This document shows positions 46,434 through 55,548 of a stretch of 64,000 nucleotides of DNA, piece after piece. Each line of letters starts with the position of its first letter. The first letter of the stretch is position 1. The translations under genes and the position numbers were made by a program. The DNA lies in contig JAJDVY010000017.1 of the NCBI GenBank assembly GCA_022825885.1, forward strand, positions 62,001-126,000, given 5' to 3'. The notes below the pieces were generated by a model. That model ran no database searches. It had not been told where the DNA came from and was given only the letters and a program-made list of their open reading frames with translations. The stretch comes from Nitrospirales bacterium. Lineage in GTDB: Bacteria; Nitrospirota; Nitrospiria; Nitrospirales; UBA8639.

Positions 46434-46449
46434 TGTTCCACGTGGAACA
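46434..46449. promoter_or_regulatory. parS: parS site 1
   Basis: TGTTCCACGTGGAACA is a perfect 16-bp palindrome and a variant of the parS consensus TGTTTCACGTGAAACA. It lies just before rsmG, 1.5 kb upstream of parB. An identical copy occurs at 47146-47161. ParB loads here to organise and segregate the origin region. Confidence 0.93.
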
Positions 46450-46452
46450 ATC

Positions 46453-47130
46453 ATGCAAAGGAAGAATGATGAAAACGGCATAGTAGAGAACAACGATCGT
46501 TGTTCTCTACTGTTTCGGAAGGGACTTGCGGCCATTAGGATGGCTTGTGACCAGGAGACGATCAATAAATTTGTGTTTTATTTACAGGAAGTTATGAAGT
46601 GGAATGAGAAAACGAATCTCACCGGCCATAAGAAGGAAGAGGAGATGGTCGGGAACCTTTTTATCGATTCCCTGGCATGCACCAGGGTGTTATCGCCGGA
46701 CACGGCCTTTTCGATTCTGGATATCGGAACCGGGGCCGGGTTTCCGGGGATTCCCATCGGCATCGTGTCTCCGCAACAGGAAGTCACCCTGCTCGAACCG
46801 AATTTGAAGAAAGTAGCGTTTCTTCATCATATGATCGGTTCACTCGGGTTGAAAAACATTCGTGTGGAATCGTGCCGCATCGAACGGTTTTCAAAGAAAC
46901 CGGAATATCATGGAAAATTTGATTGGGTGTTCATGAAGGCGTTGAGTTTCGACGTTGGTTTGGCCTATGTTACCCCTTTACTGTCCGAATTCGGGAAATG
47001 CGTGGTTTGCCGGGCCGAACCCTTGCCCCAGGACCGCCTGACGAAAGGGTTTTCCGTTGTTGAGGAAAGGCCTTACAACTTGCCGTTCGGGCTGGGAGGC
47101 AGGCTCCTCAGCATTGTAGGCCCTGCATAG
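46453..47130 (+). CDS. rsmG: 16S rRNA m7G methyltransferase RsmG (GidB)
   Basis: This 225-residue methyltransferase has the N-terminal LQEVMKWNEKTNLTG region (about 43-57) and the SAM motif LDIGTGAGFPGIPIGI (about 92-107), followed by LLEPNLKKVAFLHH and a WVFMKALSFD segment. It methylates G527-equivalent in 16S rRNA. The first 29 residues before MACDQETINK are unlike typical RsmG, so ATG 46540 is an alternative start. It is flanked by two parS sites and precedes parA. Confidence 0.93.
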   Translation: MQRKNDENGIVENNDRCSLLFRKGLAAIRMACDQETINKFVFYLQEVMKWNEKTNLTGHKKEEEMVGNLFIDSLACTRVLSPDTAFSILDIGTGAGFPGIPIGIVSPQQEVTLLEPNLKKVAFLHHMIGSLGLKNIRVESCRIERFSKKPEYHGKFDWVFMKALSFDVGLAYVTPLLSEFGKCVVCRAEPLPQDRLTKGFSVVEERPYNLPFGLGGRLLSIVGPA

Positions 47131-47145
47131 GCTGTCTCCGGAAAA

Positions 47146-50642: not shown

Positions 50643-53600
50643 ATGATTGACATTCCTCCAACTCTGAAAGATGCAGTCAAAGAACAACGTGCAGTACTCT
50701 TTCTAGGCGCGGGCGCAAGCTACAACGCTAAACATCCCAAGGGAGATGAGATTCCACAGGGTGATAACCTTCGCAAGCTAATCTGCCAGAAATTTTTGGG
50801 CGGTAAGCTGATGCAGAAGCCCCTCAACGCCATAGCGGCTATGGCAGCCAACGAAGCGGGCCGCACCGAATTTCAAAGCTATATCTCTGAACTGTTCAAA
50901 CCGTTTGAGCCAGCAGACTTCCATTTTTTGATCCCTACATTCCGGTGGCGCGCCATTGTCACCACAAATTTCGACCTAATTGTCGAAAGGGCCTACGCGA
51001 ACACCCCAAATAGGCGGCAAAACCTAATCAAGATAGTGAAGGATGGTGACAGAATTGATGCAAGATTAAATCAAGAATCCAATCCCGTCGGATTCTACAA
51101 GTTGCACGGATGTATCGAATCGTATTCTGATTTGGAAATTCCACTTATCCTCAGCAATGAGCAATACGCAAGTTATAGGAAGAATAGAACTCGTCTTTAC
51201 GATCGGGTTCGCGATCTGGGATACGAATATCCGATCATTTTTTCAGGTTATTCGATTTCCGACCCACATATTCAAGAGCTGTTGTTCGACCTGACTGACG
51301 ACAGCATCGATCGACCGCCTTTCTACTATTTATCTCCAGAGATTCCCCACCCTGAGAAACGATATTGGGAAAAATTTCGTGTCTTCACTGTCGAAACTAC
51401 ATTCGAAAATTTCCTCAAAACAATTGACCAAGCGATACCAAATATGGTGAGGGTGCTGCCTACCGACATCGGTGGTGGCGAACTATCTATCCGTAAACAC
51501 TACCGAATTGCACAACCAACAGAGTCGCAGTCTCTAAAAAGTTATATCGCCACTGATACCACGCACATTCACTCTGCGCTCACTGCCCCGCGGCAAGATC
51601 CTAGACAGTTCTATCGCGGATATGACGATGGGTGGGGTTGCATACTTCAAAATCTAGATGTCGACCGGTCATTTTCTGACTCAGTCCTTGTTGACACCAT
51701 TCTTCTTGCTGAAGAAAACCGCAGCACGACAGAACTTTTTATGCTTAAAGGGCCAGGAGGTAACGGCAAAAGTGTCTCCCTAAAGCGCATCGCTTGGGAA
51801 GCGGGCGTTACTTACGACAACCTTGTCCTATACAATGAAATTCCGGCTGGTCTTCGCATAGAGCCACTTACCGAAATTCACCGCTTAACTGGCAAGCGCA
51901 TCTTCCTATTTGTCGACCGAGTGGCACTCGTCCGTGATGAGTTAAGAAAACTGCTAGAAAACTCAAGATCTCAATCGATCCCACTTAGCGTAGTCGGTGC
52001 CGAGAGAGACAATGAATGGAACATTTATTGCGAACAACTCGAGCCATTTTTGCGTCAGGAATTTCCCGTTCGTTATCTGAACGAGAGGGAGATAAGAAAA
52101 CTTCTTAATCTATTGGAACAACACAATGCTCTCGGGCTGCTTCAGAACCTTGCTCCAGAAGATCGGGTGAGAAAATTCGTCGAAGGAGCCGAACGTCAGT
52201 TATTAGTCGCTCTCCATGAAGCGACGCTAGGAATTCCTTTCGAGGAAATTGTCGTTGATGAATTCCGACGCATCGAACCAGCGGTTGCCCGCAACCTATA
52301 TCTCGACATCTGCGCCCTCCACCAATTTGACGCACGAGTGCGCGTCGGTCTCATTTCACGCGCCTCCGGGATCCGGTTTGAGAAATTTCAAGCTGAATTC
52401 GTCCAACCTCTTGAAAATGTCGTCCGCGTCGTCCGGGATGGACACAACCGTGATGTCTATTACCGCAGTCGTCACCAGCATATCGCCGAGATCGTCTTCA
52501 ACAAAATGTTGCCCAGTCCAGAAGACAAGTTTGATCTTCTTGTGAGGCTGATCACAGCCATGAACATCGATTACTCGTCGGACTTTGATACTTTCTCTCG
52601 TTTGATTAAGGGAAGGCGCATTGCCGACATATTTCCGAGCGTCGAACTCGGGCGACTGTTCTATGAACGTGTTCAAGAGACGCTTCCCAAAGACTCATTC
52701 AGTTGGCATCAAAGAGCAGTTTTCGAGATGAAGCATACCGGAGGGGCACTTGCCCGAGCCGAAGAGGCGGCTGCACAAGCATTCAAATTGAATCCAAACA
52801 ACCATAGTATCCAACATACCCAAGCAGAGATTGCCCGCCAAATGGCCAATAATACGGACGACCCACTACGCAAGCAAAGCCTGAGGCGGACCACTCGAGA
52901 AAAACTCAGTGGCAACAACCAGCGGTCTAGCGAATATGACCTATACACACACGCGCAACTCGCTATCGACGAGTTCAAAGAGTTTGCAGCTTCGCTTAAT
53001 ATATCCGACGATAAAAAGCCTCCCACCACTTTCCTAGAGGCTGCGAAGGAAACCGAAACTGTGATCCAACGTGGCCTTCAAACCTTCCCAGAAAACACTG
53101 AATTGCTCGCTACCGAGGCAACTTTCAGAGAATTTCTCGCTCAAACCGCCCGGGCACGACAAGCCCTTGAGCGTGCCTTTAACTTGAATCCCCGGCAAGA
53201 CTGGCTCGCTGTTCGGTTGGCTCGCATGTATCAAGCATCAAATGAGACGATGAAAAGCATACGAGTATTGAAAGATTGCCTTCAGGATAATCCTTCCAGC
53301 AAGTTGGCACATCTCGAAATGGGCCGTATGCTCATCGAGTCTGGCGAAAACGAAGCAGCAATTGATCATCTAAGGCGAAGTTTCACGACAGGCGACAACA
53401 ATTTCGAAGGACAATTCTGGTATGCTCGCGAGTTGTTTCTTCTATCTCAGTGCGACAAAGCAGTCGAATTATTCGCTGCCCTTAACAACAAAGCACCTGG
53501 CCGATTCAGAACACGAGCGGCTGCCGTTGCTGAACGAGATGGTATCACAATCATGTATGATTGCCGCGTTGAACGCAAAGAAGAGGGCTATGCGTTTCTG

Positions 53601-53753
53601 AAGTTGTACGAATTTCCGAAAGATATCTTTGCATCCCGTGCCGACAGTGACCCCAGAGAGTGGGACAAATTGTATGCCAGAGCAGAAGCAAAATGCTCGC
53701 TTGCTTTCAATCGCCGAGGTGCCCGCGCAGTTTCCATTACCTTAGTTTCCTAA
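50643..53753 (+). CDS. SIR2-STAND-TPR protein with cold-shock-like C-terminus, defence candidate
   Basis: This 1036-residue multidomain protein has an N-terminal SIR2-like NADase domain with LGAGAS (21-26), TTNFD (107-111), YKLHG with catalytic-type H155, and SGYSISDPHI (201-210). A STAND-type NTPase follows with Walker A GPGGNGKS (370-377) and Walker B IFLFVD (420-425), then helical and TPR-type repeats (about 680-960). The last 70 residues (RVERKEEGYAFLKL, DIFASRAD, NRRGARAVSI) resemble a cold-shock OB fold. SIR2-STAND proteins such as Avs5 sense phage and deplete NAD+. Here the C-terminus could sense nucleic acid (inference). All key SIR2 residues appear intact. No partner gene is adjacent. 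Confidence 0.85.
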   Translation: MIDIPPTLKDAVKEQRAVLFLGAGASYNAKHPKGDEIPQGDNLRKLICQKFLGGKLMQKPLNAIAAMAANEAGRTEFQSYISELFKPFEPADFHFLIPTFRWRAIVTTNFDLIVERAYANTPNRRQNLIKIVKDGDRIDARLNQESNPVGFYKLHGCIESYSDLEIPLILSNEQYASYRKNRTRLYDRVRDLGYEYPIIFSGYSISDPHIQELLFDLTDDSIDRPPFYYLSPEIPHPEKRYWEKFRVFTVETTFENFLKTIDQAIPNMVRVLPTDIGGGELSIRKHYRIAQPTESQSLKSYIATDTTHIHSALTAPRQDPRQFYRGYDDGWGCILQNLDVDRSFSDSVLVDTILLAEENRSTTELFMLKGPGGNGKSVSLKRIAWEAGVTYDNLVLYNEIPAGLRIEPLTEIHRLTGKRIFLFVDRVALVRDELRKLLENSRSQSIPLSVVGAERDNEWNIYCEQLEPFLRQEFPVRYLNEREIRKLLNLLEQHNALGLLQNLAPEDRVRKFVEGAERQLLVALHEATLGIPFEEIVVDEFRRIEPAVARNLYLDICALHQFDARVRVGLISRASGIRFEKFQAEFVQPLENVVRVVRDGHNRDVYYRSRHQHIAEIVFNKMLPSPEDKFDLLVRLITAMNIDYSSDFDTFSRLIKGRRIADIFPSVELGRLFYERVQETLPKDSFSWHQRAVFEMKHTGGALARAEEAAAQAFKLNPNNHSIQHTQAEIARQMANNTDDPLRKQSLRRTTREKLSGNNQRSSEYDLYTHAQLAIDEFKEFAASLNISDDKKPPTTFLEAAKETETVIQRGLQTFPENTELLATEATFREFLAQTARARQALERAFNLNPRQDWLAVRLARMYQASNETMKSIRVLKDCLQDNPSSKLAHLEMGRMLIESGENEAAIDHLRRSFTTGDNNFEGQFWYARELFLLSQCDKAVELFAALNNKAPGRFRTRAAAVAERDGITIMYDCRVERKEEGYAFLKLYEFPKDIFASRADSDPREWDKLYARAEAKCSLAFNRRGARAVSITLVS

Positions 53754-54695: not shown

Positions 54696-54908
54696 TCAGC
54701 CATGTTTTGACGCGTGTTCCCGGGCAATGTTGACCAGGGTTCGTAGGGCAGAGTTGACGGTGGCGGAATCCTTGAACACTGCGGCGACATCAGGTTCCAA
54801 CAGGACTAAATTCGTACCGTGGCGATAGGCTTCGTGGTGCTTGCCACGAACGCCACTCGAAAAATCGTATTCGGCACGCATCACATCCTGTTCACCGTCC
54901 TGATTCAT
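54696..54908 (-). CDS. BrnT-associated antitoxin
   Basis: From ATG 54908 the 70-residue protein reads MNQDGEQDVMRAEYDFSSGV, then RGKHHEAYRHGTNLVLLEPD and VAAVFKDSATVNSALRTLV. This is the small antitoxin family (MRAEYDFSxGVRGKHxxAYxxGTN) that commonly follows BrnT-like toxins, with DSxxVNxALRxL at the end. It lacks the HTH seen in the 26.7 kb antitoxin, so the two modules are of different subtype. It starts 17 bases inside the toxin gene. Confidence 0.82.
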   Translation of the reverse strand: MNQDGEQDVMRAEYDFSSGVRGKHHEAYRHGTNLVLLEPDVAAVFKDSATVNSALRTLVNIAREHASKHG

Positions 54909-55167
54909 AGTGCCTCCGCTCCTTTGGTGCCGCGACCCGAGCACTGACAATACGGATGCGCTCCTCACGCTCGGTATATGATACAACAAGAATGCGATTA
55001 CGTGCGGAGCAACCCATGCTCAGAAAGCGGAATTCTCCCACAGAATGATCCGGGTCCGCAATGGTCAACTCCAGCGGTTCGCCGAAGACGGTCGCGGCTT
55101 CTGTAAAATCGACACCATGCTTCTCGACATTCGATTGCTCTTTCTCGGGATTCCACTCGAATTCCAT
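54892..55167 (-). CDS. brnT: BrnT-family toxin (second copy)
   Basis: This 91-residue protein starts at ATG 55167 (MEFEWNPEKEQSNVEKHGVD); a GTG just before it is also in frame. BrnT features are FEWNPEKExxNxEKHGVDF, EAATVFGEPLELTIADPDHS, FRFLSMGCSARNRILVVSYT and IRIVSARVAAPKERRHYE. It is a ribonuclease-type toxin paired with the overlapping antitoxin. It shares the general plan of the 26.4 kb toxin, but sequence similarity is modest, so recent duplication is unlikely. Confidence 0.9.
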   Translation of the reverse strand: MEFEWNPEKEQSNVEKHGVDFTEAATVFGEPLELTIADPDHSVGEFRFLSMGCSARNRILVVSYTEREERIRIVSARVAAPKERRHYESGR

Positions 55168-55313
55168 CACGACGTCAACGTACCTGGTTTAAGGTCTCGT
55201 GTTATTAACAGCAAAAAGCGAGAAGAAAATGTGTTGTACGGCTTTTGCTCATAGCGTGCGCTAGTAGCTCCGTTGGCCATAGCGGGGAGATAACGGCGTA
55301 AAGGTACCTGCTT

Positions 55314-55343
55314 ACAAGAATAACAACAAGTTGTTATTCTTGT
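55314..55343. promoter_or_regulatory. perfect 30-bp palindrome upstream of ATPase stub
   Basis: ACAAGAATAACAAC (55314-55327) and GTTGTTATTCTTGT (55330-55343) are perfect 14-bp inverse arms around AA. It ends four bases before the ATG at 55348. It could be an operator covering the start, or an RNA hairpin hiding it. No run of T follows, so a terminator is unlikely. Confidence 0.7.
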
Positions 55344-55347
55344 CTGG

Positions 55348-55548
55348 ATGGAGCTAACTCACCATTATCAAAGGGAAATTGAAGTTCCTCGAAATGGCAC
55401 GGTTCTTCTCCTCGGTCCTCGGATGGTAGGTAAGACCACACTCTTGGCGGACCGGTACAAACCGGGCACGTGGTTTACACGGGGAGACTGCACGGCAGAA
55501 GCGGGGAACCATGTCTGCGCTGTCGGTTTAGGCCTTCGGCTCAACTGA
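55348..55548 (+). pseudogene. N-terminal stub of an AAA+ ATPase (DUF4143-type)
   Basis: The first 43 codons read MELTHHYQREIEVPRNGTVL and then LLGPRMVGKTTLLADRYKPG, the N-terminal region and P-loop (GPRMVGKTT) of the AAA_14/DUF4143 ATPase group. After GTWF the reading becomes unrelated and stops at 55546-55548 with 66 codons; full proteins have about 380-450. Truncated and surely inactive as an ATPase. The striking palindrome before it is still intact. Confidence 0.7.

Follow-up and report, generated by a model that had tools for sequence, protein, structure and literature searches.

The window analysed here, a 64,000-nucleotide stretch of a Nitrospirales genome, contains a perfect palindrome, ACAAGAATAACAAC-AA-GTTGTTATTCTTGT, with inner half-sites ATAACA and TGTTAT, close to the start codon of a short open reading frame (Table 1). 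Direct reading of the letters bears out the initial annotation, which had described a perfect 30-bp palindrome with 14-base arms, an AA spacer and four bases to the ATG. The frame opens like an AAA_14 ATPase, with the Walker A sequence GPRMVGKTT, and then breaks off; 29 residues align to residues 6–34 of an intact orthologue (L156; 83% identity), and beyond position 55449 there is no further alignment to L156 as a continuation. The AAA_14 profile gives the stub 18.2 bits against a cut-off of 27, the Walker A part alone being left, and neither profile search nor alignment finds a DUF4143 or nuclease domain. The gene had been called a truncated DUF4143-type ATPase, which is correct; judged from its sequence, the stub is a remnant and not a working member of the PDC-S01 family described below. 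L156 itself is located in another species of the genus (genome G012, contig 43), at a different genomic place; it has 379 residues from the chosen ATG, upstream of which stands CAAGAATAACGACAAGTTGTTATTCTTG. Elsewhere in this part of the window are two small minus-strand ORFs next to one another, 54892–55170, which we take to be a BrnT-type toxin, and 54696–54989, as well as an ORF of 1036 residues (50643–53753), presumably a defence-like protein with a SIR2-type domain and TPR-like repeats.

Table 1. Features at the palindrome and the truncated ATPase gene (positions in the window)
Feature	Position	Strand	Remarks
Putative -35 box, TTACAA	55312–55317	+	Overlaps left arm; corresponds to TTGACA-like peak of the family
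Perfect palindrome, 30 bp	55314–55343	.	14-bp arms and AA spacer, read directly
Putative -10 box, TATTCT	55335–55340	+	In right arm; corresponds to TATAAT-like peak of the family
Truncated ORF of AAA_14-DUF4143 (PDC-S01) ATPase, 66 aa	55348–55548	+	Start assigned by homology to intact L156
Part of stub aligning to intact ATPase (residues 6–34, Walker A)	55363–55449	+	tblastn, 83% identity, E 3.7e-12

Perfect palindromes with arms of at least 10 bases and a spacer of up to 4 occur twice in the window (55314–55343 and 46482–46511), whilst six dinucleotide shuffles of the whole window gave 0, 0, 0, 1, 1 and 0, with arms never longer than 10. In the genome, an assembly of 50 contigs totalling 2.38 Mb at 95.5% completeness, the exact matches of the 14-mer arm are the two arms of the palindrome alone; of 20 matches in total, the 18 others all have two mismatches, and a reversed control pattern gave similar counts (8 + 8 versus 11 + 9). 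The arm, which the initial annotation had proposed to look for elsewhere in the genome, is hence single-copy and no common genome repeat. Among 14 genomes of the genus, a site of the window type (up to two mismatches) is present once each in four, three of them with stubs (G000, G001, G006) and one with the intact gene (G012). Chance, or membership of a genome repeat, is refuted by the unique arm, the short arms in shuffles and the single occurrence in each of four genomes, and we regard it as vanishingly unlikely; a REP-like element was rejected on the same single-copy behaviour. An intrinsic terminator was also rejected, since the arms are A+T-rich and are followed by CTGGATGG, with neither a G+C-rich stem nor a run of T. 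The two central bases of the palindrome (55328–55329) read AA in G000 and G012 but TT in G006 and G001, which looks like a flip, whilst the arms hardly differ between AA- and TT-centred copies (the window, L079, L076 and L156); similar flips of the centre are seen in a few other orthologue pairs. Cruciform processing was considered as a source of such flips and set aside, as 15 of 85 changed mismatch cells are flips, no clear excess in cells that are non-independent.

The window locus lies upstream of atpH and was compared in the 14 genomes. G000, G006 and G001 carry the site with stubs that are each cut differently, and in G013 the last codons alone remain and the site is gone. The locus is incomplete in G012, G009 and G008 owing to contig ends; in the remaining seven, a look for the palindrome alone found no such element upstream of atpH. 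Across 32 codons, 8 synonymous and 7 non-synonymous changes separate the stub of G000 from that of G006, as expected for a gene under selection until lately. Together, the sequences suggest that the ATPase gene was lost from the atpH locus recently and more than once. The atp operon itself seems to have no need of the site, its own TTGACA box being present in relatives lacking the ATPase. The initial annotation took the unmutated palindrome to be either recent or still in use: differently cut stubs in two relatives and the codon changes agree with the first, whereas the second finds no support among the intact family genes of the same genome, none of which (0 of 10) groups with the clade of the stub. 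In the window genome the site would thus be a leftover from a gene that was lost recently.

The intact protein L156 matches the AAA_14 (69 bits) and DUF4143 (89.4 bits) profiles, as do all ten DUF4143 genes of the window genome for AAA_14. Five residues (E283, E312, D314, E328 and K330) are invariant in 26 of 26 family members; the invariant positions comprise AAA+ motifs together with an E..ExD..ExK set resembling that of PD-(D/E)XK nucleases. In a predicted model of another member (L256; pLDDT 93.9) the helices 192–204, 212–219 and 223–235 and the strands 239–242 and 258–261 form a winged-helix-like run (192–261); a few members show Pfam matches to MarR or to further HTH families, which are weak and lie below curated cut-offs where shown. 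Sequence and model therefore point to a predicted AAA+ / winged helix / PD-(D/E)XK nuclease architecture.

A fold search with residues 1–304 of the L256 model, which barely includes the nuclease domain, placed two archaeal ATPases as the best structural neighbours in VIA-align, namely PABY2304 (2qen; Z 15.8, rmsd 3.2, 252 aligned residues) and SSO1545 (2fna; Z 15.6, rmsd 3.5, 254 aligned), both of which we assume to be of the STAND-like class. The match to them stops near model residue 272 and leaves the C-terminal nuclease domain of the family uncovered. The top Foldseek match is Orc1/Cdc6 on origin DNA (2qby; E 7.5e-6), with a low TM-score of 0.27–0.28. Orc1/Cdc6 is an AAA+ protein that contacts DNA through a winged helix; unlike the family considered here, it is an initiator and, to our knowledge, has no nuclease domain.

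PADLOC assigns L156 and three paralogues from the window genome to PDC-S01, with E-values from 4.2e-48 (L156) to 1.8e-167. PDC-S01, a PADLOC candidate defence family, is described as an ATPase fused to PD-(D/E)XK that ranks fourth by frequency among the defences of prokaryotes, whilst most PDCs await validation (PMC12988326); a rumen survey gives it as the most frequent individual locus (PMC13356809). The passages of PMC12988326 consulted mention no operator, palindrome or regulation for PDC-S01, of which the window copy is a stub.

Conservation near intact relatives was the other check proposed for the palindrome in the initial annotation, and such sites do recur there. For nine of the ten family genes of the window genome, the best inverted repeat between -130 and +30 has a net score of at least 7, and the repeat sequences differ from gene to gene among these paralogues. 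A near sample was drawn from 126 matches in this genome and 58 relatives; seven were left out (fragments, one at a contig edge), and of the 119 loci used 113 contain an anchor motif, with a start that could be used in 110. Between -90 and +15, 48 of the 110 starts have a palindrome scoring at least 9, where dinucleotide shuffles would give 1.6; this score is reached in 9 of 215 cases by the remaining gene starts of these loci, a set that was defined by crude ORF calls and includes at least one family member (L134). A wide sample comprised the best 80 of 539 relatives (GTDB species genomes, one subclade as query) and 28 from IMG/VR, 3 of these 108 being dropped; its shares describe that subclade sample rather than the whole family, archaeal members lying outside it. 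Nineteen of the 78 distinct genomic start regions (from the best 80 of 539) reach a score of 9 (1.35 expected), as do 7 of 23 viral ones (0.4 expected). By their record titles, the 19 come from Omnitrophota/Omnitrophica, Bdellovibrionales/Bdellovibrio, Oligoflexia, Deltaproteobacteria, Desulfobacterales, Alphaproteobacteria, Pseudomonadales, Chlamydiae, Nitrospinota, Nitrospira, Spirochaetia and Prevotella.

Pooling gave 215 start regions, which were thinned below 70% identity to 171 non-redundant starts. At a score of at least 8 these contain 78 palindromes (6.9 expected from dinucleotide shuffles) and at a score of at least 9, 54 (1.9 expected), leaving 93 starts below 8. The 78 palindromes span a median of 32 bp, and in 51 of them the right end falls within -20 to +10. 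Predictions were written down before 54 further stretches were fetched and before 30 other loci were read; from these 84 loci, 7 were dropped and 16 were already seen or duplicates, leaving 61; in the search that gave the 30 loci, 16 of 100 matches had been left out. Here too, 33 of 61 starts score at least 8, with 3.2 expected. For plasmid genes with annotated starts, 3 of 7 reach a score of 7; an eighth locus (L392) was left out as its start lies inside the match. Palindromes are thus a recurrent property of starts in the AAA_14-DUF4143 family in several bacterial phyla. Symmetric changes in the arms (241 double changes versus 98.6 expected, 159 of them keeping the pairing) carry no weight in this respect because they come from related pairs and from palindromes that had been selected as such.

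Of the 93 starts whose palindrome score stays below 8, 14 carry a strong direct repeat instead (2.2 expected). Over all 171 starts, the best direct repeat scores at least 9 in 25; its offset is 22, 23, 31, 32 or 46 in 22 of these, compared with 41 of 213 in shuffles, for a set of offsets that was chosen post hoc from an earlier look at the data. Offsets of 22–23, 31–32 and 46 bp correspond to roughly two, three and four helical turns, and such phasing suggests that copies of a protein line up along one face of the helix.

The dyad of the window overlaps the core promoter of the gene, judged by consensus. Its putative boxes are 17 bp apart and the -10 box starts 13 bases before the ATG; the counterpart of the -35 box is TTGCAA in G012 and G006. 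The 171 starts of the family show the same arrangement: TATAAT-like hexamers (up to one mismatch) peak at -14, -13 and -12 (13.5, 7.6 and 8.2%; about 1% each in controls), so that 50 of 171 have one at these three positions versus about 3% of 386 control starts, likewise taken from crude ORF calls, and TTGACA-like hexamers peak at -37 to -35. Paired -35 and -10 boxes with up to two mismatches are found at 55 of 171 starts and at 15 of 386 controls. In the held-out set, 14 of 61 starts have a -10 box at -14 to -12, compared with a mean of 3.0 at five other offsets. Shine-Dalgarno 5-mers are depleted (12 of 171 family starts versus 91 of 386 controls), and the motif is present in 6 of the 61 held-out starts. 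The family promoter would accordingly be sigma-70-like with 17-bp spacing, placing the transcription start at the ATG or directly beside it. The -10 peak 12–14 bases before the ATG, taken with the Shine-Dalgarno depletion, indicates that the transcripts are probably leaderless and that the palindrome probably acts as DNA, not RNA.

An inverted repeat immediately 5′ of an ATG would also fold as RNA, and a hairpin in a 5′ leader could hide the start codon or bind a regulator. We consider this improbable: with the -10 box inside the site the hairpin would be left untranscribed, mismatches in the arms of palindromes scoring at least 8 (15 G.T versus 12 A.C) show no clear wobble bias, and some clades carry phased direct repeats in place of the palindrome.

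The sequence of the site goes with the protein. For the nine starts nearest the protein of the stub (L156 and L200–L207, the best eight of 539 relatives), ATAAC[AG]..TGTTAT is present at seven, compared with 0 of 267 other starts; the motif was derived from the clade of the window, and four of the seven carriers (L203, L204, L206 and L207) look mutually close. These relatives come from Bacteroidetes, Omnitrophota/Omnitrophica (by record titles) and the genus of the window, i.e. three phyla-level groups, and their DNA from -160 to -61 is unrelated to that of L156 (22–33% identity). The arm sequence thus appears to track the protein clade of the stub across phyla. Within the predicted recognition helix, K224 occurs together with TCC..GGA arms in the discovery set (11/26 versus 2/40) and, weakly, in a held-out set of 28 genes closer to L256 (3/10 versus 0/18, p 0.037; p 0.098 for a looser form), in which the other two classes of the helix-based prediction have no clear member. 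Residues outside this helix (A50 and T273) associate with the arms as well, and sliding-window correlations between protein and site peak also in the nuclease region and vary with the identity band; the link between recognition helix and site is suggestive and non-specific.

Binding by the ATPase is our inference and the helix–site link is weak, so that the site might instead belong to another regulator, either a host factor or a phage-coded protein. This is unlikely in our view, as paralogues within one genome have different sites, the site of the stub clade is single-copy and goes with the gene or its stub, and the arm motif stays with the protein clade from phylum to phylum.

Alternatively, the site might be a DNA end or target for a moving gene, through transposition or homing by the ATPase-nuclease, with the promoter overlap being secondary. 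In 88 pairs of orthologues (15 clusters) whose flanks are unrelated, similarity is confined to a stretch from about -70 upstream to +40 downstream and is near background past -70; the upstream homology between the window and the intact G012 copy, located in a different place, begins a few bases before the palindrome; and the family reaches 12 copies per genome in the near sample and 22 matches, fragments included, in another search. The conserved promoter boxes, however, account equally well for the left limit of the orthologue homology, and neither a target duplication nor a clean empty site was found. At one locus compared in eight genomes the right flanks fail to match, and four gene-less genomes keep the outer of two sites. 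Mobility thus seems to us an unlikely primary role. Three close copies of one family member (G010:C1:841884, 847277 and 854456; L097, L098 and L101) lie within 13 kb, and their upstream sequences are identical in the alignment.

The locus just mentioned belongs to a second clade with the pattern TTGAGTNAATTTACTCAA (up to one mismatch), for which G000 and G006 have two sites 81–82 bp apart together with the gene. Lone TTGAGT..ACTCA sites without an ATPase were observed at the same locus in G004, G011, G009 and G001 (L382, L383, L384 and L385); since the right flanks are unmatched, it does not provide a clean empty site. For the stub clade the site is specific to the gene and co-occurs with it, whereas in the second clade 4 of 14 genomes keep the site without the gene. 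Sites outlive genes in the second clade as in the window, and the lone ones may persist by chance, because they serve in trans, or as what was once a lost gene's outer operator. In viral sequences the site pattern AATAACAACNNGTTGTTATT occurs in one viral contig and a letter-permuted control in none; tblastn finds no family gene in the available stretch of this contig, and no ORF of 80 residues is listed near the site. A single viral contig is too little to support a phage target site as an explanation.

We think it likely that the ATPase gene has its promoter-operator in the palindrome and that this operator is bound by the winged helix of the encoded ATPase, i.e. that the gene is autoregulated. 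An oligomer of the ATPase would bind the site specific to its own clade, either a palindrome or, in other clades, phased direct repeats. The bound site would span the promoter boxes and end at the start codon of the leaderless transcript, and the bound ATPase would control, most likely repress, its own gene; in the window genome the gene has been cut to a stub, with the putative operator left behind. Of the roles suggested in the initial annotation, an operator fits best, given the sites at intact relatives and the promoter overlap, and nothing was seen in support of a replication or transfer site.

Toxin-antitoxin systems and lambda CI are autoregulated through a palindromic operator over their own promoter, and the lambda CI mRNA from PRM is leaderless. 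The proposed arrangement is analogous in that the palindromic site lies over the promoter of the gene itself; it differs in that the family consists of one gene, with ATPase and nuclease in one chain, and in its direct-repeat versions with two-, three- and four-turn spacing. For Thermus thermophilus TT_P0211, which has AAA_14 and DUF4143 motifs, one study reports a 6.6-fold increase with a plasmid present in the Argonaute-coding strain, indicating that RNA of such genes can change with conditions (PMC4406477).

An operator before a gene will not surprise a specialist; what seems new is the occurrence of operator-like sites, either palindromic or phased with the helix, over a probably leaderless promoter at about two fifths of the sampled starts, across phyla, in a large, little-characterised family of single-gene defence candidates. 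The literature searched, with preprints and most subscription papers outside its scope, gives no description of such sites at DUF4143 or PDC-S01 starts. Their presence makes the DNA binding of the family directly testable: a predicted site for each clade is a biochemical handle on DNA binding, oligomerisation and switching-on, and also a means to find family members and remnants. One can further speculate, at rather long odds, that PDC-S01 is a promoter-tethered sensor, in which an AAA+/STAND ring with its nuclease, seated on its own clade-specific operator, silences the leaderless promoter, and infection-triggered release or rearrangement lifts the repression of the gene and at the same time arms the nuclease. 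If so, one DNA site would combine regulation, self-marking and sensing for a very common single-gene defence candidate.

The second perfect palindrome of the window (46482–46511; AGTAGAGAACAACGATCGTTGTTCTCTACT) has 15-bp arms. Its core, GAACAACGATCGTTGTTC, has 13 exact copies in the genome and 36 places within three mismatches, compared with one for a reversed control, and in its variants the two sides change in concert (GACC..GGTC, GATC..GATC); the 12-mer CAACGATCGTTG has no match in the literature searched. Close by, at 46434–46449, TGTTCCACGTGGAACA, which we take to be parS-like, lies between two ORFs that are presumably GidA-like and RsmG-like. An ORF at 47145, by our assumption ParA-like, starts with MFHVEH, the residues that a further parS spanning its ATG would specify, as inferred at the protein level.
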